This document shows positions 12,561 through 27,131 of a DNA stretch of 35,540 nt, piece by piece. Below the pieces are notes generated by a model that was not told where the DNA came from, made no database searches, and saw only the letters and a program-made list of their open reading frames with translations. The stretch spans positions 1 to 35,540 of the forward strand of contig WFQU01000011.1 in NCBI GenBank assembly GCA_015486845.1, given 5' to 3'. How positions within the stretch are numbered: position 1 is the stretch's first letter; the number at the start of each line of letters is the position of its first letter. Origin of the DNA: Anaerolineae bacterium (GTDB lineage Bacteria > Chloroflexota > Anaerolineae > JAADDB01). Position numbers and translations under genes: made by a program.

Positions 12561-15500
12561 TTGTTAGAGGAAACATTCTCTTCTAGACCCGTTTCAGAAA
12601 AAGACCCAGCAATACTTCGTCTGGATGCGCTGGTGGATGTGAAACAACTGCAGCGACTCCAAGACCAATTCGCTCAATTGTTCGGCGTTGCATCATTAAT
12701 TTTCAATCTAGATGGCACGCCGATAACCCAACATAGCAATTTCTCGCCACTTTGCCGGCTAATCCGGGCTACCAAAAAAGGTGCAGAGAACTGTCGTCGC
12801 TCCGATCAACACCTCAACCAACGTGTGCGTGAAACTCAAAAACCGGTTTTCTCCGTTTGCGAGAGTGCGGGCCAAATGTGGAATGCCATTGTGCCCATTA
12901 TCGTCGACGATCAACATATCGCCAGTTGGGGCTTCGGCCAAGTACTCATCAATGAACCAGATGAAGTCAGCATCAGGGCTTATGCACGTGAGGTCGGCGC
13001 TGACGAAGAGGAAATAATTGCTGCTTTCCGTCAAATTCCCCGGATGTCAGCCGAGAAAGTGCGACAAATAACGCAGTTCCTTTCCGAATTAGCGCATCAA
13101 GTTACACTTATTGGATTCCAAGCGCTACAGCGCAATAACACCCTTCATCTTTTAGCCCAGGCTAAACAACAACTAGTTGCTGAAAGGGATCGATTCAAAT
13201 TACTTTTTGAAGAAATCCCTATCGGTGTATTCATCCAACAGAATGACCAAATCATAGAATCGAACACGGCCTTTGTCCGTCTGATGGGAGGGCAACATGA
13301 AGACGAATTTTTAGGGCAATCACAGCTCGATTTTGTAGATGAACGGGATATCGATTCTGTGACCAAGCACGCAGCAATAATGGCCACGCAACACAAGCCA
13401 GCACCGCCCATAATTATCCGATTGCGCCGTGTGGACGGGAAACAAATATGGGCAGAGATTCAGGGAATGTCATTCACCTGGCGCGGCCGGACTGCTTTCT
13501 TAGAGACGGTCATAGATGTTACACAACGCGAAGAATCGAACATGCACCTGGCCACCTCAGAAGAAAAATACCGGTCCTTAGTAGAACATTCGCCGGATAT
13601 TATCGTCTTGACTGATGCTAATGGCCAAATATTATTTACCAACAACCAATTTCGGGATATTTTTGGCCAGTTGCGGGATCAGCAACCATCCTTATCGCTT
13701 TTCGATATCGTGTGGCAAGATGATATCACTACATTCCAAAAGGCATGGCAAAAAGCATGTGGACAAGGAGTCCCTTTACATGATGTAGTTTGCCGTTTTC
13801 AGGACAAAATGGGTAAAATACGGGACTTTGCCATGGCAGGAAGTCCTATTTCCCCTTTGCGTGGGGATATTGCGTGTTACCAATTTGTCCTGCGCGATGT
13901 AACAGAACAGCGACGCATACAACAGGAATTAAGGGAAACCAGCGATCAATTGCAAGGGCTAATTAATGCTATGCCGGATATCGTTGTTTTCAAAGATGGT
14001 ACAGGACACTGGTTGTTAGCCAATGATTTTACTCTCAAGTTATTCGAATTGAAAGGTGTCCCCTACCAAGGAAAAACAGAATTTGAACTCGCCGATTATA
14101 CAGCGTTCTATGCGGATGCATTCCGCCAATGTGATAATTCAGATGCGTTAGCCTGGGAGCAGGGAAGAACAGTAATCGTTGAGGAAAGTTTCCCGCGCTC
14201 GAATGGTGGAACTTTCATCTCTGAAACCATCAAAGTGCCGCTTTATTATCCTGACGGGCAGCGCAAAGGATTGTTGGTCTTAGGACGAGATATCACCGAG
14301 CGTAAAGCAATCACCGAAGCGCTTCGTCAGTCAGAACAGAACTTCCGCGCTCTAATCGAGAACTCTAACGACGCGATTTATGTCCTTTTTGCGGGTCACC
14401 ATTTCGTTTTTGTCAATCCCAAATTCGAAACACTATTCCACTACTCAGCTGATGAGTTACTATCAGAAGATTTCGACATCGATACCCTTATTGCGCCAGA
14501 AAGCCACCACTTATTCCAGGAACGGGCAGAGAAACAGGAAAAAGGTAAACCAATAGCCCGTGCTTATGAATTCAAAGGGATTACTAAAGAAGGTGTCATC
14601 TTGGACTTGGACGTGAACACGTCACCCGTGGAATGGCACGGGAAACCGGCCGTATTGGGCATCCTACGCGACATTACCGAGCGCAGGATATTAGAAGCCC
14701 AGTTGCAACAGGCGCAAAAGATGGAAGCGGTTGGCCAGTTAGCCGGCGGCATCGCGCATGATTTCAACAACATGCTGGGTGCCCTCAAATTACATCTCTC
14801 TCTTTTAGAGCGAAATCTGTCATTGGAAGGCAACAACGCGCGTTCCATGCGGATCATTGAAGAGACTGTGGACAAAGCTGCCGATATGACCGGTAGTATT
14901 CTAACTTTCTCACGGCACCAAATATCACGGTCCGAACTCGTCGACATGAATGAAGCAGTTCGTAATGTGTTACGCATCCTGGAAAAAACTTTCGACGAGA
15001 ATGTGGTAATTCATACGGCACTCCAGGGCCAGTTACCCCTCATCAAAGGCAACCGGACAGAGACAGAGCAGATCATTCTGAATTTGAGTATCAATGCTCG
15101 CGATGCCATGCCGACAGGCGGAGAACTTTTCGTCGAGACAGGAACGCAGACTTTCACCAACCATGTGCCAGAGCGGGAAAATGCTAAAAAGGGCACTTAT
15201 GTCGTGCTAACGGTTGCTGATAGCGGCTGTGGAATGCCATCCGAGGTTCAGGATCGTATCTTCGAGCCGTTTTTCACCAATAAGGAAAACGGTACCGGCT
15301 TAGGCCTTTTTACAGTGTATAGCATTATGAAAAATCACGGTGGTTGGATCAACGTAGAAAGTCGGGTAGGAAAAGGCACTACGTTTCGGCTATATTTCCC
15401 TGCCACGACTTCCATGCAGAAAGAGCAAGAAATGGATATAGCCAGCAACACGACGATAGAAATGGGGCAAGCCACAATTCTCATTGCTGAGGATAATGCT

Positions 15501-15851
15501 GCCATGCGGGAAGGATTGCAAGATACTTTGGAATTTTTGGGATATGGCACCATTGTGACCAGGAATGGCATCGAAGCTGTCAATGCCTTTGAAGAACATC
15601 AACAGAAAATCGACGCCGCCATTCTCGACCTCTCTATGCCTAAAATGAATGGATCGGAAGCATTCCAAAGGATACGAACACTTAGCAAAAGCTTGCCAGT
15701 GCTCATTTCTTCCGGCTACACGGAGGATCGGGCTGTAGTAGGCATTTTAGAGGATGAGCGGGTCGCTTTCATTCAGAAGCCATACAATATCGATCAAATA
15801 GGTGCTCAATTACACCAAATGTTGAATGGCCACTTTATGCATAGTAAATAA
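12561..15851 (+). CDS. PocR-PAS hybrid sensor histidine kinase with receiver, 1096 aa
   Basis: A soluble sensor kinase without signal peptide or membrane helix. Order of domains: PocR ligand-binding domain (about 25-190, with CRLIRATKKGAENCRRSDQ, CESAGQMWN and the IVPIIVDDQHIASWGFGQVL block), then four PAS domains (about 213-325, 333-450, 460-587, 590-710). The NtrB-like kinase core has phosphoacceptor His733 (IAHDFNN), N-box Asn845 (LNLSINARDAM), G1 Asp887 (DSGCGM), FEPFFT and GTGLGLFTV. The C-terminal receiver has phosphoacceptor Asp1023 (LDLSMPKMNG), Thr/Ser switch SSGYT and Lys in FIQKPY. All catalytic residues are present. The start is TTG at 12561, dictated by AAAGGGAGG at 12547-12555; no ATG is near. 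It has no DNA-binding output and no adjacent regulator, so a distant phosphorelay partner is implied. Confidence 0.93.
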   Translation: MLEETFSSRPVSEKDPAILRLDALVDVKQLQRLQDQFAQLFGVASLIFNLDGTPITQHSNFSPLCRLIRATKKGAENCRRSDQHLNQRVRETQKPVFSVCESAGQMWNAIVPIIVDDQHIASWGFGQVLINEPDEVSIRAYAREVGADEEEIIAAFRQIPRMSAEKVRQITQFLSELAHQVTLIGFQALQRNNTLHLLAQAKQQLVAERDRFKLLFEEIPIGVFIQQNDQIIESNTAFVRLMGGQHEDEFLGQSQLDFVDERDIDSVTKHAAIMATQHKPAPPIIIRLRRVDGKQIWAEIQGMSFTWRGRTAFLETVIDVTQREESNMHLATSEEKYRSLVEHSPDIIVLTDANGQILFTNNQFRDIFGQLRDQQPSLSLFDIVWQDDITTFQKAWQKACGQGVPLHDVVCRFQDKMGKIRDFAMAGSPISPLRGDIACYQFVLRDVTEQRRIQQELRETSDQLQGLINAMPDIVVFKDGTGHWLLANDFTLKLFELKGVPYQGKTEFELADYTAFYADAFRQCDNSDALAWEQGRTVIVEESFPRSNGGTFISETIKVPLYYPDGQRKGLLVLGRDITERKAITEALRQSEQNFRALIENSNDAIYVLFAGHHFVFVNPKFETLFHYSADELLSEDFDIDTLIAPESHHLFQERAEKQEKGKPIARAYEFKGITKEGVILDLDVNTSPVEWHGKPAVLGILRDITERRILEAQLQQAQKMEAVGQLAGGIAHDFNNMLGALKLHLSLLERNLSLEGNNARSMRIIEETVDKAADMTGSILTFSRHQISRSELVDMNEAVRNVLRILEKTFDENVVIHTALQGQLPLIKGNRTETEQIILNLSINARDAMPTGGELFVETGTQTFTNHVPERENAKKGTYVVLTVADSGCGMPSEVQDRIFEPFFTNKENGTGLGLFTVYSIMKNHGGWINVESRVGKGTTFRLYFPATTSMQKEQEMDIASNTTIEMGQATILIAEDNAAMREGLQDTLEFLGYGTIVTRNGIEAVNAFEEHQQKIDAAILDLSMPKMNGSEAFQRIRTLSKSLPVLISSGYTEDRAVVGILEDERVAFIQKPYNIDQIGAQLHQMLNGHFMHSK

Positions 15852-19419: not shown

Positions 19420-22400
19420 TTAGCCAGCCACCGGCCGCTGTTCGATCGCGAATTGGACTTCACCTTCCGGTAATTTGAACTGGGCCGCCGGCAAATCCGC
19501 CGGCAGAGCGCCTACTTGCAAATCAAGGGTCAGCGTTTCACTTTGCACATAATCGCCAAACGAAGCCAATGCCTGTTGCAGCGCCGGCGGGCCCTGTACG
19601 TACAAATTAATGCGATCGGTCACGGCAAAGCCGGCTTCTTTACGCAGGTTTTGCACATAACGCACCAGCTCTCGGGCGATGCCCTCGCGCCGCAAAGCGT
19701 CATCCAACGCCACATTAAGAGCCACCACGTAACCGGCTTCTTCCACCATAACAAACCCGGGCAGCGGTTGCAACAACACATCCACTTCGTCGGCGTTGAT
19801 GGTCACAGTTTGGCCATCCAGCGTCAGGGGAATGCTTTCCCCGGCCTGGAACGCCACCGCCATCGCCATCACATCACCGCTGTTCAACGCTTTGCGGATA
19901 CTACCCAAGAGCCGACCGTACTTCGGCCCTAATAGCTGCGGCTTGGCATTAATACGCGCGGTGACAATACCGGACAACTGGTCAACGACTTGCCATTGTT
20001 TGACGTTAAGCTCCGCCAATAATTGTGCTGCCAAATGCGGTAATTGTTCTCGTTCCATCTCATCGGGCAAGAATAACCGAATCTCGGCCAAAGGCTGACG
20101 CACTTTGATATTGGCTTTCTGCCGGGCGGCGTGCCCCATGCGTACCAAACGTTGTACCAACGCCACATCGCTCCGCAAAGCCTCATCAATGAGCGCTTCG
20201 TCCGCCTCCGGCCAATCGCTCAAATGTACGCTTTCAGCACCGGACGCATCCACAGCACCAACTAAATTTTGCCAGAGCATCTCGGCAGTGAACGGCATGA
20301 ACGGGGCCAAAAGCTGACTCAGTGTGCGCAAAGTCGTATACAACGTCTGCAGTGCTGCCGGTTCTCCTTCCCAGAAACGCCGCCGGCTTTGCCGCACATA
20401 CCAATTGCTCAGCGCATCAACAAAAGACTCGATCCTCCGGGCCGAGTATGTGGGATCATACTGACGCATGCGCTCCGTCACATCCCGGATCAGCGCGTGC
20501 AATTCGGCCAGCAGCCAGCGATCCAGCAACTGATCACTGGGCGCCGCTTGGGCAGCAGGCGTCCACGCCGCAATATTGGCATAAGTGATGAAAAAGCTGT
20601 AACTGTTCCACAACGTGTTCATAAAACCTTTGACCACCTCTTGCACTAAACGGCTGCTGAAACGGCGCGTTTGCCCGGCCGGCGAGGCGGTATACATGTA
20701 CCAGCGCACGGCATCCGCCCCGTGGGCATTTACCACTTGCCACGGATCGACCACATTCCCTTTGCTCTTGCTCATCTTGGAACCATCCTCGGCCATGATG
20801 AGTCCCAGGCTGAGAACATTCTTGAAACTGGGTTGGTCGAACAGCATTGTGGAAACAGCATGCAGTGTGTAAAACCAACCGCGCGTCTGATCCACTGCTT
20901 CGCAAATGAAGTCAGCCGGATACTGTTCTTGGAACATCTCCTGGTTCTCGAAAGGATAGTGCCATTGTGCCACCGGCATGGAACCGGAGTCGAACCAGAC
21001 ATCCACCAGTTCCGGCACGCGGTGCATCGTGCCGCCGCATTTAGGGCAGGTAAGAACGATCTCATCGACGTCAGGACGATGCAAGTCTAACGGGGTAGCG
21101 TCCGCAGGGACCGATTCGTTGGGATCGTCCGGCTGGAGCACAAACTTTTTGCCGGCGCGCTGCGCCAGCTCCGCCACAGAACCAAAGGCCTCCATGTGAT
21201 CGCAAGCCGGATCGTCGCAGCGCCAAACTGGGAGCGGCGTTCCCCAATAACGATTACGTCCCAGCGCCCAATCCACATTGTTTTCCAGCCAATTGCCAAA
21301 ACGCCCGTGTTGCAAATGTTGGGGATACCAGTTGATCTTCTCGTTGTTTTCCAGCAGCTCATCTTTTTTCTTCGTGGTCGCCACATACCAGGTCGAGCGG
21401 GCGTAGTAGAGCAACGGTGTGCCACAGCGCCAGCAAAAAGGATAGGTATGCTCGTAAATTCCTTTTTGGTACATCAAACCGCGTTGTTCCAACTCCTCTT
21501 CGATCAACGGGTCGGCGTCTTTCACGAAAATACCTTTCCACGGCGTAATTGCGTTGATGAACTTGCCTTCGGCATCCACTGTCATCAGCAACGGCAGATC
21601 ATATGCTTTGCCCACCTCCATGTCATCGGCACCAAACGCAGGCGCCATGTGCACGATGCCAGTGCCCTCTTCGATGCTCACGAAGTCGGCCGTCACCACA
21701 TAGGCGTAATCTTTGCTCACCGGCAGGAATGTGTAGAGCGGCTCGTACCGTTTGCCGGCCAATGCTTTACCCTTCATTTCGGCCAGTAACTCATAATCAT
21801 CTCGCATAACGCTGTCCAACAACGCTTTAGCCAAGTAATAGCGTTCACCCCCTTGTTGCACCAAAACATAGTCGATATCCTCACCGACAGCTAAAGCAAC
21901 ATTAGCCGGCAAAGTCCATGGCGTAGTCGTCCAGACCAAGAAATAAGTATTCGGCTCCCCCTTGACGGCGAATTTTATCGTGACCGAAGGGTCTTTCGTG
22001 CCTTCTCGATAGCCCAAAGAAAGCTCGTGACTACTCAGCGGTGTGCCACAACGGGGACAATATGGCACCACTTTGTATCCTTCGTAAAGCAGTCCTTGGT
22101 CCCAAAATTGTTTCAAAATCCACCACAGCGATTCCACATATTTATTGTGCAGCGTGACATATGGATCTTCCATGTCCACCCAAAAAGCGATGCGGTCGGT
22201 AATGCGCTTCCACTCATCGACATAAGTAAAGACCGACTCCCGACACAGATCGTTGAATGCTTTAATGCCATAATCCTCGATTTGCTTCTTGTTGGTGAAA
22301 CCGAGCTTCTTTTCTACTTCGATTTCCACCGGCAGGCCGTGTGTATCCCAGCCTCCTTTGCGTAACACGTAATAGCCGCGCATGACCCAATAGCGCAAAA

Positions 22401-22602
22401 TGACATCCTTGAATGACCGGGCCAGCACGTGGTGGATACCCGGTCGGCCATTGGCTGTCGGAGGGCCTTCATAAAACACGAAACGGGGCGCGTCCGGTCG
22501 CTCCGCAGTTGTCTTGGCGAAAATATCATTTTCCTTCCAGAAGGCAAGGATTTTCTCTTCTTCCTGGGCAAAATTCACCCGAGATGATACAGGTTGAAAC
22601 AT
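19420..22602 (-). CDS. ileS: isoleucyl-tRNA synthetase, long (IleS2) type, 1060 aa
   Basis: Class Ia synthetase that charges tRNA-Ile. The HIGH-type signature is PGIHH at 54-58 within GPPTANGRPGIHHVLAR, and KMSKS is at 609-613. The editing domain lies between, with the TTTPWTLPAN block. Four cysteine pairs (CPRCGTPLSSHE; CWRCGTPL; CDDPACDH; CPKCGGTMHRV) are scattered through the CP1/CP2 insertions. N-terminus MFQPVSSRVNF, length near 1050 and the long C-terminal domain place it with the eukaryote-like IleS2 group, whose members are often mupirocin-tolerant. ATG 22602 is chosen because GAGGAG is 6 nt upstream. No convincing promoter or T-box lies in the 250 nt directly before it; the only T-box is 2.4 kb away at 24971-25250, on the same strand. 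Confidence 0.97.
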   Translation of the reverse strand: MFQPVSSRVNFAQEEEKILAFWKENDIFAKTTAERPDAPRFVFYEGPPTANGRPGIHHVLARSFKDVILRYWVMRGYYVLRKGGWDTHGLPVEIEVEKKLGFTNKKQIEDYGIKAFNDLCRESVFTYVDEWKRITDRIAFWVDMEDPYVTLHNKYVESLWWILKQFWDQGLLYEGYKVVPYCPRCGTPLSSHELSLGYREGTKDPSVTIKFAVKGEPNTYFLVWTTTPWTLPANVALAVGEDIDYVLVQQGGERYYLAKALLDSVMRDDYELLAEMKGKALAGKRYEPLYTFLPVSKDYAYVVTADFVSIEEGTGIVHMAPAFGADDMEVGKAYDLPLLMTVDAEGKFINAITPWKGIFVKDADPLIEEELEQRGLMYQKGIYEHTYPFCWRCGTPLLYYARSTWYVATTKKKDELLENNEKINWYPQHLQHGRFGNWLENNVDWALGRNRYWGTPLPVWRCDDPACDHMEAFGSVAELAQRAGKKFVLQPDDPNESVPADATPLDLHRPDVDEIVLTCPKCGGTMHRVPELVDVWFDSGSMPVAQWHYPFENQEMFQEQYPADFICEAVDQTRGWFYTLHAVSTMLFDQPSFKNVLSLGLIMAEDGSKMSKSKGNVVDPWQVVNAHGADAVRWYMYTASPAGQTRRFSSRLVQEVVKGFMNTLWNSYSFFITYANIAAWTPAAQAAPSDQLLDRWLLAELHALIRDVTERMRQYDPTYSARRIESFVDALSNWYVRQSRRRFWEGEPAALQTLYTTLRTLSQLLAPFMPFTAEMLWQNLVGAVDASGAESVHLSDWPEADEALIDEALRSDVALVQRLVRMGHAARQKANIKVRQPLAEIRLFLPDEMEREQLPHLAAQLLAELNVKQWQVVDQLSGIVTARINAKPQLLGPKYGRLLGSIRKALNSGDVMAMAVAFQAGESIPLTLDGQTVTINADEVDVLLQPLPGFVMVEEAGYVVALNVALDDALRREGIARELVRYVQNLRKEAGFAVTDRINLYVQGPPALQQALASFGDYVQSETLTLDLQVGALPADLPAAQFKLPEGEVQFAIEQRPVAG

Positions 22603-22857
22603 GATGATCTCCTCTATATAGAATCTATGACTGTTTTCAACATCTGCTCTTGATAAGACTAAAAGCCTATTGTTTCTTCCTGCTCTGTCCATAGAATGTA
22701 CAAGTAGGAAGAGCGGGATATTCCTTCAGCAATCGATTCCCGTTTACGGATTGCTCTGTAAAACCAAGCCCACAAAAATGGGCAAGCGAGAGCTCAAATG
22801 GTTGACTAACACTTAGCCTTGGGCCGGCAATGCAAACAAGGACAAGACAAAGCTAAA

Positions 22858-23256
22858 ATGTTCAAAAGTGAAAAAGGACAAGCCATCGCCGAATTAGCCA
22901 TCGTGGGCGCGCTGCTGGCGCTGTTGCTCTTGGCGGTCGCAGATTTCGGCCGGCTTTTCTCCGCTTATGTCATCATTACCAATGCTGCCAACAGCGGCGC
23001 CGTTTACGGTTCCGCCAGTATGAACGCCGCACAGGATAGTGCTGGCATCGCCGCGGCAGCGCGCAATGAGACCTCGACACTTATCCAAGATCCCAACGAT
23101 CAGTTGACCATTAGCTCAGCAGTCCAGGAGGATAGTTTCGGGCAACATAATGTACGCGTAACCGTGACTTTCCGACCGAATTTCCAATTTCCCATTCCCG
23201 GCGTTCTGAACCACGTCACGCTGCAACGCAGTGTGGTCAGGATGGTGCAAGAATGA
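22858..23256 (+). CDS. TadE-like pseudopilin-type protein, 132 aa
   Basis: N-terminal basic stretch KSEKGQAIAE followed by one hydrophobic helix (LAIVGALLALLLLAVADFGRLF) is the TadE pattern: a type IV pilin-like segment with Glu just inside the membrane and an exported C-terminal part. The remainder (TLIQDPNDQLTISS..., VRVTVTFRPNFQFPIPGV) is the usual TadE beta-rich tail. ATG 22858 fits the family start; the TTG at 22819 in the same frame has no better signal. It overlaps the next gene by 4 nt. No TadA/TadB/TadC or prepilin peptidase gene lies near, so the secretion machinery must be elsewhere. Confidence 0.85.
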   Translation: MFKSEKGQAIAELAIVGALLALLLLAVADFGRLFSAYVIITNAANSGAVYGSASMNAAQDSAGIAAAARNETSTLIQDPNDQLTISSAVQEDSFGQHNVRVTVTFRPNFQFPIPGVLNHVTLQRSVVRMVQE

Positions 23257-23678
23257 CAAAACTTCGCCAGGCTCTATCGCGCCAGATTGGACAATCTACC
23301 GTCGAGTTCGCCCTGACCAGTCTCATCATCATCCCCATGCTCTTCGCCATGATAGATGTCGGCGTCTATTTCTGGATCGATACCACTTTGGCTAATGCCG
23401 TCCGCGAAGGCACGCATTACGCTTCGGTGCACGGCTCTCAGTCCAGTGCCCCATCAGGGCCGGGGAACGATAGCGCCATCATCAGCGATGTGAATAGCCA
23501 CATTGCCGGGCTGCCTAATCCAGCTAACTTGACGGTACAAGCGACTTGGTCACCCAACAACAGCCCTGGCAGCACAGTAACTGTGCAAGCCACCTATCAA
23601 TGGCACCCTTTTTCCGCCATACTTTGGAACGGCACACTAACTATCCAAGAAGACTCGACCATGACCATTGAACATTGA
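23253..23678 (+). CDS. TadE-like protein, second copy, 141 aa
   Basis: Starts in ATGA overlap with the preceding stop, so the two are translationally coupled. QIGQSTVEFALTSLIIIPML plus FAMIDVGVYFWID is a TadE/TadF N-terminus: Glu at about position 18 followed by a single membrane helix, then ANAVREGTHYASVHG typical of the family. The exported part carries TVQATYQWHPFSAILW. It is paralogous to the previous gene rather than a duplicate. It likely forms a minor pseudopilin complex with the other two genes. Confidence 0.87.
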   Translation: MTKLRQALSRQIGQSTVEFALTSLIIIPMLFAMIDVGVYFWIDTTLANAVREGTHYASVHGSQSSAPSGPGNDSAIISDVNSHIAGLPNPANLTVQATWSPNNSPGSTVTVQATYQWHPFSAILWNGTLTIQEDSTMTIEH

Positions 23679-23690
23679 ATTGAGGTAGCC

Positions 23691-24944
23691 ATGAGAAAAA
23701 GATTGTTCACCCACGTACAATCCGAAAAAGCGCAGACATTGACCTTGTTTGCCTTGCTAGTACCCTTATTAGCCGTCATTTTAGGACTGGTTGTCGACGT
23801 AGGTAACGCATTCAGCCAACAAAGACAAGCCGAAAATGCCGCCGACGCCGCTGCGCTGGCCGCCGTGCGCGTGCTTGTGAGCCAGGGCGAAACAGCTGCA
23901 GTGAACGCCGGCCAGTATTACAGTAGCCAGAACGGGTTCAGCGCCACTGTGCATACTCCGCCGACGGACGGACCGCGTGCCGGCAATCCCAACTATGTCC
24001 AGGTGAATGTATCACGTAATGTTAGCCCCATTTTTCTACGTTTGTTTTGGGATGGCAATTTCCACATTCAAGCTCGCGCTGTTGCCGGCTACCTTTACCA
24101 AACTGGCGGTGGTGGCATCATCACGCTCAACAAAAGCTGGCCCTCTTTTACTTTGAACGGCAATATCCATTTTAATGTGCTGGACGACGGTGTGGTCCAC
24201 GTGAATTCGTCAAGCCAGCAAGCCATGATTTTGAATGGGCATGTACAGTTCAATTACCATGTCTCGCCTACCATCGTCGGCAATTATAGTTGCAACGGCG
24301 CAGTTACTGTCAATGGGCAACAATGCAGTTCATGGGGAGGCGGAAGTAGCCCGTTCATCACCGGTGCGCCGGTCGAGCCGGATCCGTTAGCCCATGTCCC
24401 CCAACCCACTTTCACGCAATGTGACCACACCTGGTATTCCGTCAACGGTCACGGCACCTATTATCTCGATCCCGGCGTTTACTGCGGCGGCATCACGCTG
24501 AACGGCAACATCAAAGCTATTTTCCGGCCCGGCGTCTACATCTTGGCCGGCGGCGGCTTGACCGTTAACGGCAATTACGATGTTGAGGGCTCCCGGGTAA
24601 TGTTTTTCGTCACCAGTTGGAACGGCATTCCCGGCACATTTACTTTGAACGGCACCGGTTACACCCATTTCACGCCACCGAATAGCGGCCCGTGGCAAGA
24701 CATTGTCTTTTTCCAAGATCGGTCTAATCCTTATCCTGTTACCATCAACGGCAATGCTAATCTCAGCGGTTTCGAGGGCATTATTTACGCCGCCTCCGGG
24801 GCGCTCATTGTCAACGGTAACGCCACAGTTCATGCCAGCTACGTCGTCAACAAGTTCACCGCCAATGGTAATGCAACGATCAACGTCAACAGCTATTTTA
24901 GTTCCCAAATTCAGGGCACGCCACAAATTTTCTTGGGTGAATAA
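23691..24944 (+). CDS. TadG-like protein with NGN-repeat exoplasmic domain, 417 aa
   Basis: The first 55 residues or so match the TadG N-terminus (EKAQTLTLFALLVPLLAVIL, VVDVGNAFSQQRQAENAADAAALAA), a single membrane anchor plus the conserved helix. The rest has no VWA domain. Instead it carries about ten copies of a short motif (L/V/I)NG(N/H/T/Q), at about 153, 177, 203, 249, 266, 288, 316, 345, 367 and 382, spaced 15-40 residues within beta-rich sequence (YLDPGVYCGGITLNGN, FRPGVYILAGGGLTVNGN). This suggests a beta-solenoid or adhesin-like surface domain. Few cysteines. GAGG precedes the ATG, 12 nt after the previous gene. The T-box transcript from the other strand would cover the whole gene. 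Confidence 0.82.
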   Translation: MRKRLFTHVQSEKAQTLTLFALLVPLLAVILGLVVDVGNAFSQQRQAENAADAAALAAVRVLVSQGETAAVNAGQYYSSQNGFSATVHTPPTDGPRAGNPNYVQVNVSRNVSPIFLRLFWDGNFHIQARAVAGYLYQTGGGGIITLNKSWPSFTLNGNIHFNVLDDGVVHVNSSSQQAMILNGHVQFNYHVSPTIVGNYSCNGAVTVNGQQCSSWGGGSSPFITGAPVEPDPLAHVPQPTFTQCDHTWYSVNGHGTYYLDPGVYCGGITLNGNIKAIFRPGVYILAGGGLTVNGNYDVEGSRVMFFVTSWNGIPGTFTLNGTGYTHFTPPNSGPWQDIVFFQDRSNPYPVTINGNANLSGFEGIIYAASGALIVNGNATVHASYVVNKFTANGNATINVNSYFSSQIQGTPQIFLGE

Positions 24945-24970
24945 TATCTCCTTCCCGAGAATGTGCCAAT

Positions 24971-25009
24971 AAAAAAGCGCTCCCGTCCTCTTTTTGAGGA
25001 CGAGAACGC
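24971..25009 (-). terminator. T-box terminator hairpin
   Basis: On the minus strand GCGTTCTCGTCCTC (25009-24996) pairs with GAGGACGGGAGCGC (24990-24977) over 14 bp including G-U pairs, loop AAAAA, followed by six T (24976-24971). It lies 26 nt past the convergent tadG stop. Confidence 0.92.
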
Positions 25010-25250
25010 TATCATTCCCGCGGTACCACCTCTTTTGGCGCTAAGCGCCCACTTCGTGAAAGGCTAACACCTTCCCGCTTTGTTAACGGGGCGCAACCCC
25101 GACCCGGCCTACTTGATCGATGCGTTCAGCTGGCAGCTCCGGGAGGATTTTCGACAAAGCTTTGCGTCCGGCTCCCACCGCCCCGGGCTCGCTGCGCCAA
25201 AATTCCTTGTTTACTCGTTCCCATCACAGCTTTTGCTTCGTTGATCTGCT
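24971..25250 (-). ncRNA. T-box riboswitch, probable tRNA-Ile (AUC) specificity
   Basis: A tRNA-sensing leader reading toward ileS. On the minus strand the T-box core AGAGGTGGTACCGCGG is at 25033-25018, directly before the terminator, with which its antiterminator competes. Stem I shows GGGA, the AGUA loop motif (25215-25212), helix ACAAGG/CUUUGU, and a distal part of the AGCGAGCCCGGGGCGGTGGG type. The specifier side reads GAAAAUCC before UCCC; AUC (25148-25146) in the usual position indicates isoleucine, with Lys AAA or Asn AAU as less likely registers. It has its own promoter. The next gene on this strand is ileS, 2.37 kb away beyond three opposite-strand genes. Confidence 0.9.
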
Positions 25251-25253
25251 AAA

Positions 25254-25282
25254 AGTCTAACATATTCTCAGCCAGGTGTCAA
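25254..25282 (-). promoter_or_regulatory. T-box promoter
   Basis: On the minus strand a perfect TTGACA (25277-25282), 17 nt, TAGACT (25254-25259). It is divergent from the heme operon promoter about 94 bp away. Confidence 0.8.
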
Positions 25283-25375: not shown

Positions 25376-25404
25376 TTGACACAATCAAAGCAGTCCCATA
25401 TAAT
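25376..25404 (+). promoter_or_regulatory. perfect consensus sigma-70 promoter of the heme operon
   Basis: TTGACA (25376-25381), 17 nt, TATAAT (25399-25404). Transcription should start near 25411, giving a leader of about 44 nt before hemC. It predicts strong, mainly constitutive expression; no operator is evident. Confidence 0.85.
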
Positions 25405-25454
25405 TTTGCCTATATTTCTATAGTTTCACTCATATTTTCGAAGGCGGTTTGTTC

Positions 25455-27131
25455 ATGACATCTTTGCTGCGTATCGGCACCCGGGGCAGTGCCTTAGCCC
25501 GCTGGCAGGCCAATTATATTCGCACGCAATTGCTGCAACATTGGCCGGACTTGAGGGTCGAAATCGTTATGTTTGTCACCCGGGGTGACAAAGAACTGGC
25601 TAAGCCATTAACTGAGATAGGCGGCAAAGGTCTCTTTACAGTCGAGCTGGAAGCAGCACTTTTGGCCAGCGATATCGACCTGGCGGTGCATTCTTTGAAG
25701 GACTTGCCCACCGATATGCCCGCCGGCATGACCATCGGCGCGGTGTCCCGGCGCGAGGATCCCCACGACGTGCTCATCTCCCGTTTTGGTGTCCCGTTGG
25801 CCTCACTGCCTCCCCGGCCGAAAATCGGCACCAGCAGCAACCGCCGGGCAGCCCAGATTCGCCTGGCCCGGCCGGACGTGGTCATCGTGCCATTGCGCGG
25901 CAACGTGGATACCAGGGTGCGCAAAGCGTTGGCGTCCGGTGGTCGTTATGATGCTGTCGTGCTGGCTCGCGCCGGTGTAGTCCGCCTAGGTCTGGCGGCG
26001 CACATTACCCAGGTTCTTCCGTTCGACATCATGTTGCCGGCGCCGGGGCAAGGTGCGCTGGCGGTGCAGTGCCGGGCCAACGACGACCGGGTGCTGACTT
26101 ATTTGCAGCCGCTTGACGATCCAGCCACGCGGGCGGAAGTCGATGCCGAACGGGCGTTTTTGGCCGGCTTAGGGGGCGGCTGTGCGCTGCCCCTGGCCGC
26201 GTTGGCACAAGCGCAGGATGGCGCACTGCAACTGCGCGGCCTGTTCGTAACGGAACAAGGCGAACCGTTGCGCGCCGCGGGGAGCAGCACCCCGGCACAA
26301 GCGGCCGCGTTGGGCGCACAATTGGCCGCTGAAGTGGTCCACACCCGACACGACCGGGTTCTGGCGGCGACCTCGTATCCCTTGCACGGCTGGCGCATTT
26401 TAGTCACCCGGGCCGAAGCGCAAGCCGTATCACTCTTAGGAACATTGCGCTATTTAGGTGCTGAACCGCTACCCTACCCCACCATCCGCATCGCTCCGCC
26501 GGCGCAACACGACGAGATGGACGTAGCCTTGCACCGGTTAGCCGCAGCCGGTTACGACTGGCTAATTCTCACTTCGGTGAACGGCGTGCGCTTCCTGTGG
26601 AAACGGCTGGCGGCTCTGGATTTGGACGAACGTCTGCCGGAACAGGTGCAAGTAGCGGCCATCGGGCCGGCCACGGCCGCGGCGCTGCGAGAGCGCGGCG
26701 TGGAGCCGGCTTTGGTCCCGGAGACTTTCGTGGCAGAAGGGTTGTTGGCGGCGCTCACCGACGTCGACGGCCAGCGCTTCTTGTTGGCCCGGGCGGATCG
26801 GGCGCGGCCGTTGTTGCGGGAAGGCTTGCGCCGCCGCGGCGCCCGGGTGGACGAAATCGTCGCTTATCGCACTTTGGTGACGCCGCCAGCCGCGCCCCCG
26901 CCGCCGGCTGACGTGGTTCTCTTCACCAGTCCGTCCACCGTGCAAGGCTTTGTGGCGGCGCTGAGGGGGGAACGTTTGCCGGCTGCCGTTGTGGTGGCTT
27001 GCATCGGCCCGATCACTGCCGCAGCGGCTCGAACTGCCGGCCTGCCAGTGCATGTCGTGGCCGAGGAATATACCGTCGCCGGCCTGGTGGACGCGCTGTT
27101 GGCCTACCGGCGGCAGGTGATGGAATGCTGA
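25455..27131 (+). CDS. hemC-hemD: fused porphobilinogen deaminase / uroporphyrinogen-III synthase, 558 aa
   Basis: Two consecutive steps of tetrapyrrole synthesis in one chain: four porphobilinogens to hydroxymethylbilane, then ring closure to uroporphyrinogen III. The HemC part (about 1-305) has IGTRGSALARWQA, GGKGLFTVELE, DLAVHSLKDLPT, GTSSNRRAAQI, LRGNVDTRVRK, LPAPGQGALAVQ and Cys243 in GLGGGCALPLAA for the dipyrromethane cofactor. The HemD part (about 315-558) starts at GWRILVTRAEAQAV and shows LILTSVNGVRFLW, AAIGPATAAAL, LARADRARPLL and VLFTSPSTVQGF. The frame is continuous with no stop or restart at the junction, so it is a real fusion. ATG 25455 has AAGGCGG 7 nt upstream. Confidence 0.96.
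   Translation: MTSLLRIGTRGSALARWQANYIRTQLLQHWPDLRVEIVMFVTRGDKELAKPLTEIGGKGLFTVELEAALLASDIDLAVHSLKDLPTDMPAGMTIGAVSRREDPHDVLISRFGVPLASLPPRPKIGTSSNRRAAQIRLARPDVVIVPLRGNVDTRVRKALASGGRYDAVVLARAGVVRLGLAAHITQVLPFDIMLPAPGQGALAVQCRANDDRVLTYLQPLDDPATRAEVDAERAFLAGLGGGCALPLAALAQAQDGALQLRGLFVTEQGEPLRAAGSSTPAQAAALGAQLAAEVVHTRHDRVLAATSYPLHGWRILVTRAEAQAVSLLGTLRYLGAEPLPYPTIRIAPPAQHDEMDVALHRLAAAGYDWLILTSVNGVRFLWKRLAALDLDERLPEQVQVAAIGPATAAALRERGVEPALVPETFVAEGLLAALTDVDGQRFLLARADRARPLLREGLRRRGARVDEIVAYRTLVTPPAAPPPPADVVLFTSPSTVQGFVAALRGERLPAAVVVACIGPITAAAARTAGLPVHVVAEEYTVAGLVDALLAYRRQVMEC

Follow-up and report, generated by a model that had tools for sequence, protein, structure and literature searches.

The window analysed here, the whole 35,540-nt stretch of DNA, is contig C11 of a 3.28-Mb genome assembly (G000; 98% complete, 182 contigs). 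Judged by sequence, its source is an Anaerolineae-like Chloroflexota MAG, the IleS of which groups with those of Caldilineaceae and other Anaerolineae MAGs. Six genomes of the window's family were present in the comparison set, and one of these, G003, represents a sister genus of G000. The features of the locus are as follows.

19420-22602, minus strand: ileS, the only full-length isoleucyl-tRNA synthetase gene found in the genome
22603-22857, no strand: divergent ileS/tadE intergenic region, with no ileS-ward promoter-like site above shuffled sequence and unconserved in G003
22609-22614, minus strand: ileS ribosome-binding site GAGGAG, read directly in the sequence
22858-23256, plus strand: tadE-like gene 1 (PF07811, E = 9.1e-9), ATG at 22858, ORF extending to a TTG at 22819
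23253-23678, plus strand: tadE-like gene 2 (PF07811, E = 5.4e-12)
23691-24944, plus strand: tadG-like gene (Tad, Tad_C, DUF7305), convergent with the T-box
24283-24313, minus strand: promoter-like TTGACA-19-TATAAT inside tadG, in antisense, with a poor spacer and not conserved in G003
24976-25010, minus strand: T-box intrinsic terminator, a 15-bp stem followed by TTTTTT
24993-25236, minus strand: T-box leader (RF00230; Stem I, Stem III and antiterminator region)
25146-25148, minus strand: specifier codon AUC (Ile) in GAA-A-AUC, from covariance alignments
25254-25282, minus strand: T-box promoter TTGACA-17-TAGACT, score 14.7 (median 14.3 for 67 ileS T-box upstream regions)
25376-25404, plus strand: hemCD promoter-like TTGACA-17-TATAAT, divergent from the T-box

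A gap of 2390 nt (~2.4 kb) separates the T-box from ileS, the next co-oriented gene, and is occupied by three genes on the opposite strand. A preliminary description of this DNA had reported the same layout, and it holds: the plus strand encodes two TadE proteins and a Tad/TadG-like protein, and the minus strand encodes IleS, starting at 22602. The tadG stop lies on the other strand, ~30 nt beyond the T-box terminator. Upstream of the T-box is a divergent gene, a 560-aa ORF that fuses hemC to hemD (25449-27131, plus strand), followed by a haem synthesis cluster comprising hemB, a radical SAM gene, a glutamyl-tRNA reductase gene and a class-III aminotransferase gene that by position is probably hemL. 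Elsewhere in the window, positions 12561-15851 (plus strand) encode a hybrid histidine kinase of 1096 aa that combines a PocR sensory domain and a receiver domain with several PAS domains. The tad trio accounts for three of the four TadE-family hits in the genome. Apart from the trio, a second locus (L191; G000:C121, 2999-7819) carries genes for a cpaB/RcpC-like protein, a ParA-like ATPase and a prepilin peptidase, together with two T2SSF (TadB/TadC-like) genes.

In a covariance-model search, the minus-strand leader matches RF00230 at 24993-25236 with 100.5 bits, relative to a gathering score of 93 (E = 3e-21). It resembles an ileS T-box of the transcription-termination type in its Stem I with AGUA and GAA motifs, AUC specifier, T-box core (GGUGGUACCGCGG), antiterminator with an alternative 15-bp terminator and U-tract, and strong sigma-70-like promoter. 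The full T-box unit reported earlier, from promoter (25282-25254) to terminator (25010-24976), is thereby borne out. Single-sequence folding of the leader is modestly better than that of shuffled sequence (z = -1.9) and was not used as evidence. Unlike the usual ileS T-box, the element is removed from its gene by 2.4 kb and three opposite-strand genes; a co-oriented target directly downstream is absent, which is a trait of position and not of the RNA as such.

In the covariance alignments, the specifier position falls directly after GAA-A. Calibration within the same genome places UCC there in the T-box before serS and ACC in that before thrS, and AUC is found in the window T-box, in that of G003 and in nine further ileS T-boxes displayed. 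This position-calibrated specifier argues that the displaced T-box is, by its sequence, Ile-specific, as had been claimed.

Several other targets and remnants were considered and rejected. A second ileS or another nearby target gene finds no place, with a single full-length IleS in the genome and the other five T-boxes preceding homologues of serS, trpE, thrS, pheS and trpS (named from translated sequence, without a family search). The alaX gene is absent from both G000 and G003, where the sole hits lie in a ~910-aa frame that is presumably alaS. A hidden co-oriented gene in the gap was represented by a 179-aa minus-strand ORF (24387-24926), which has no counterpart beyond 56 codons in G003; comparison of the two genomes revealed no ORF conserved as coding on the ileS strand of the gap. 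Finally, the sequence GGAAGGAG after the G000 terminator was rejected as a leftover ileS ribosome-binding site, being absent from G003.

Comparison of the ileS-to-T-box spacing in related genomes, as the preliminary description had proposed, showed the same T-box/tad/ileS block in G003, with a gap of 2398 nt and a tadG orthologue that is 68% identical and on the same relative strand. The G003 T-box scores 106.1 bits against RF00230 and is preceded by the promoter TTGACA-17-TAGAAT. On the far side of the T-box the two genomes differ: G000 has hemCD, and G003 has another divergent gene, which looks like glpX by its N-terminal sequence. That a chimeric MAG contig has joined unrelated pieces at this locus is exceedingly improbable; both assemblies are fragmented (182 and ~530 contigs), but identical order and orientation recur in two assemblies of different genera, with IleS 81% and TadG 68% identical.

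Within the family, the T-box directly precedes ileS in G002 and G005, T-box-alaX-ileS is seen in G001, and the opposite-strand tad block is confined to G000 and G003. As these two form a 100/100 clade in the IleS tree, the tad block would most simply have entered once, in their common ancestor. No further T-box/tad/ileS locus was found among 80 loci returned by a genome-contig scan (the G000 and G003 records were not among them).

The preliminary description had taken it as established that T-boxes normally sit directly upstream of the genes they control, and a survey of 887 T-boxes placed all of them within 480 nt of a gene start (PMC2494555). This rule fails in the class to which the window belongs. 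A T-box lies up to 6 kb upstream of ileS in the same direction at 67 of 127 distinct loci, directly upstream in 24, with only same-strand genes (or unresolved sequence) between in 35, and with opposite-strand genes between in eight; these counts are approximate, since they come from a regular expression that matches the T-box core, combined with a simple score for coding frames. T-box operons that keep to one strand over as much as ~5 kb, with ileS as the last gene, are common in the class, and the usual same-strand partner between T-box and ileS encodes an AlaX-like tRNA-editing protein. This gene is a regular member of Anaerolineae Ile T-box-ileS operons (L044, L049-L052, L059, L063-L069, L101-L107 and others), and would represent an alanyl-tRNA editing factor under apparent isoleucine-tRNA control.

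Has the displaced T-box been maintained? Between G000 and G003, protein identity is 81% for IleS and 67.5% for TadG, and four-fold degenerate sites are near saturation (40% identical in ileS, 36% in tadG). The displaced T-box is 77% identical, relative to 77%, 78% and 64% for the orthologous thrS, pheS and serS T-boxes that adjoin their genes; identity in the ileS/tadE intergenic region is 49% if aligned columns alone are counted, and 32% if all are. Among the 47 base pairs of the T-box model, 31 are identical, nine retain pairing through single-sided (five) or double-sided (four) changes, four are broken in one genome and three are gapped. The G003 terminator keeps 15/15 pairs, with one double-sided and two single-sided changes, and its T-box promoter scores 16.6. 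Taken together, the 77% identity relative to 36-40% at four-fold sites, the compensatory changes and the strong promoters argue that the T-box is under purifying selection at its displaced position, as read from this two-genome alignment.

The same comparison bears on the idea that the locus is a relic, in which ileS, severed from its T-box by the insertion, has acquired a different promoter and left the T-box to decay. Transposase insertions between riboswitch and target have been explained in this way, as chance events, in a survey of antisense-acting riboswitches (PMC9943018), and a single genome taken alone would look identical. However, an unselected 244-nt element would not remain 77% identical where four-fold sites have fallen to 36-40%. 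In both genomes the specifier, core and terminator are intact and the promoter is strong, which, together with the compensatory changes, likewise speaks against decay, and the 68% TadG identity speaks against a recent transfer of the whole block into G003. We consider the relic explanation very unlikely.

If the T-box still functions, it is pertinent to ask whether its read-through RNA reaches ileS. The preliminary description had found no convincing promoter just before this gene, and that observation stands: the best promoter-like score in the 245 bp before ileS falls below shuffled sequence (6.8 and 6.2). As an argument for read-through it carries little weight, because a consensus promoter is likewise missing before most Anaerolineae ileS genes for which no T-box was detected; across 61 such loci, the median upstream score within 250 bp is also 6.8, and only 8% reach the range of T-box promoters. 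On the ileS strand, the T-box promoter is the only strong one besides the poorly spaced, unconserved TTGACA-19-TATAAT site inside tadG, which is a possible candidate for an alternative ileS promoter. In both G000 and G003, the sites that resemble terminators on the ileS strand of the gap are weak, and chance alone would give about as many. The G000 genome does encode Rho, and 2.3 kb of untranslated RNA would be a plausible Rho target. The most economical reading is probably that antiterminated RNA reaches ileS, because ileS is the next co-oriented gene, because it is the T-box target in relatives, and because no conserved ORF was found between the two and the terminator-like sites there are weak. 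The long T-box operons that end in ileS elsewhere in the class point the same way.

Whatever lies at its far end, any antiterminated RNA would have to be antisense to tadG if the T-box functions by antitermination, because antisense tadG begins ~30 nt past the terminator. The T-box might then have been kept for this purpose alone, with ileS transcribed from its own promoter and the read-through RNA repressing tad in isoleucine starvation. The RNA meets tadG first, in antisense, and regulation of tad could by itself account for the constraint on the T-box. Antisense-acting riboswitches have also been predicted in number (292 cases in a 2023 survey, including 107 of 15,851 T-boxes; PMC9943018), and the trio holds 3/4 of the genomic TadE hits, with cpaB, prepilin peptidase and tadB/tadC homologues elsewhere. 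On the other hand, this alternative requires that the T-box has taken on a new target and that ileS has an unseen promoter. The T-box target in relatives is ileS, and the ileS-proximal region is unconserved and holds no promoter signal above shuffled sequence. Control of tad alone therefore seems unlikely.

Our preferred reading, to which we assign a probability of roughly 0.62, is that of a working T-box separated from ileS by the tad insertion, with read-through making ileS a distal cistron and tad an antisense target. An opposite-strand tadE-tadE-tadG block would have inserted between T-box and ileS in the ancestor of the two genera. During isoleucine starvation, uncharged tRNA-Ile would prevent termination at 25010-24976, and RNA polymerase would then cross 2.3 kb antisense to tadG and both tadE genes. 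The distal cistron, ileS, would be translated via its own ribosome-binding site, such that one molecule would serve, in the style of a noncontiguous operon, as both ileS mRNA and tad antisense RNA, and the tad mRNA would reciprocally be antisense to the ileS leader. The read-through RNA, we infer, reaches ileS and is the Ile-responsive source of IleS; that it lowers tad expression enough to matter is speculative. The earlier proposal had set a tad insertion and a long read-through RNA side by side as alternatives. Both are favoured here, and they are not mutually exclusive.

The geometry of the locus is, by sequence, that of a noncontiguous operon or excludon. In G000, no intrinsic terminator was found on the plus strand between tadG and the hemCD promoter-like site, and none was found on the tad strand of G003 after tadG and before the T-box. 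Because no intrinsic terminator lies between tadG and the T-box in either genome, the tad mRNA may cover the T-box leader and may thus also run antisense to it. A physiological output could follow, with the starvation transcript shutting off pilus/secretion genes, as the preliminary description had proposed, and high tad transcription lowering ileS; this overlaps our preferred reading, and the two are not mutually exclusive. The architecture (full overlap, and the missing terminators just noted) is compatible with such an output, and noncontiguous operons of S. aureus do regulate reciprocally (PMC7154746). Against this, similar opposite-strand inserts are mostly toxin-antitoxin genes, which suggests tolerated insertion over selected logic, and the physiological output appears possible albeit doubtful. 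Equally tentative is the fullest version of the proposal, namely that a starvation-only RNA encodes IleS while silencing the genome's sole tadE-tadE-tadG set, and that this arrangement has been selected across two genera as one of several independent interruptions.

Precedents exist for each half of the arrangement. In S. aureus, the noncontiguous operon menE-menC-MW1733-ytkD-MW1731 (PMC7154746) contains opposite-strand gene(s) inside one unit with fully overlapping mRNAs, as is predicted for the window. It differs in that the window's first element is a tRNA-sensing leader, not a coding gene, and the inverted block comprises three genes. Known antisense-acting riboswitches include the S-box/T-box of ubiG (Andre 2008, as cited in PMC7154746) and Listeria aspocR. 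As in these, the riboswitch and a neighbouring gene converge, with the terminator opposite the 3' end of that gene, so that read-through would yield antisense RNA. In contrast, the antisense RNA of the window would most likely continue into the ancestral target, ileS, and two genera share the arrangement, with the constraint measured between them. A limited literature search found no paper on a T-box joined to a noncontiguous operon. The displaced Ile T-box is genuine and conserved, and it adds a variant to two kinds of arrangement that were already known, antisense riboswitches and noncontiguous operons.

Constraint equal to that on gene-adjoining T-boxes argues that the displaced T-box still acts at a distance. 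The locus thus offers a natural, evolutionarily dated case in which to ask whether a riboswitch can control a gene from kilobases away, past genes on the opposite strand and in spite of Rho and an untranslated RNA. If the RNA does reach ileS, the distance and strand rules for assigning riboswitch targets would need relaxing, and surveys that scan only a few hundred bases downstream would mis-assign such leaders.

Toxin-antitoxin genes lie on the opposite strand between an Ile T-box and a co-directional ileS in about five other lineages, and these interruptions could serve as repeat tests. The inserts encode PIN and AF2212-like proteins in L049, ParE-like/RelB-like proteins in L066, PemK in L069, and TumE in L095, L101 and L103. 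These loci, typically Anaerolineae T-box-alaX-ileS operons, differ from the window in the identity of their inserts, and most have a co-oriented gene (e.g., alaX) directly after the T-box. The exception is L066, where opposite-strand genes directly follow the T-box, as in the window. The pattern suggests that a long T-box operon has repeatedly taken up insertions that are tolerated, and it lowers the likelihood that the tad case is a circuit built for a purpose. The T-box-ileS interval in these six loci is a possible insertion hotspot. Finally, the family member G004 (L047) has a gene that was named PemK/MazF-like from its sequence only; it is co-oriented with alaX and ileS and lies between the two, ~50-440 nt before ileS.
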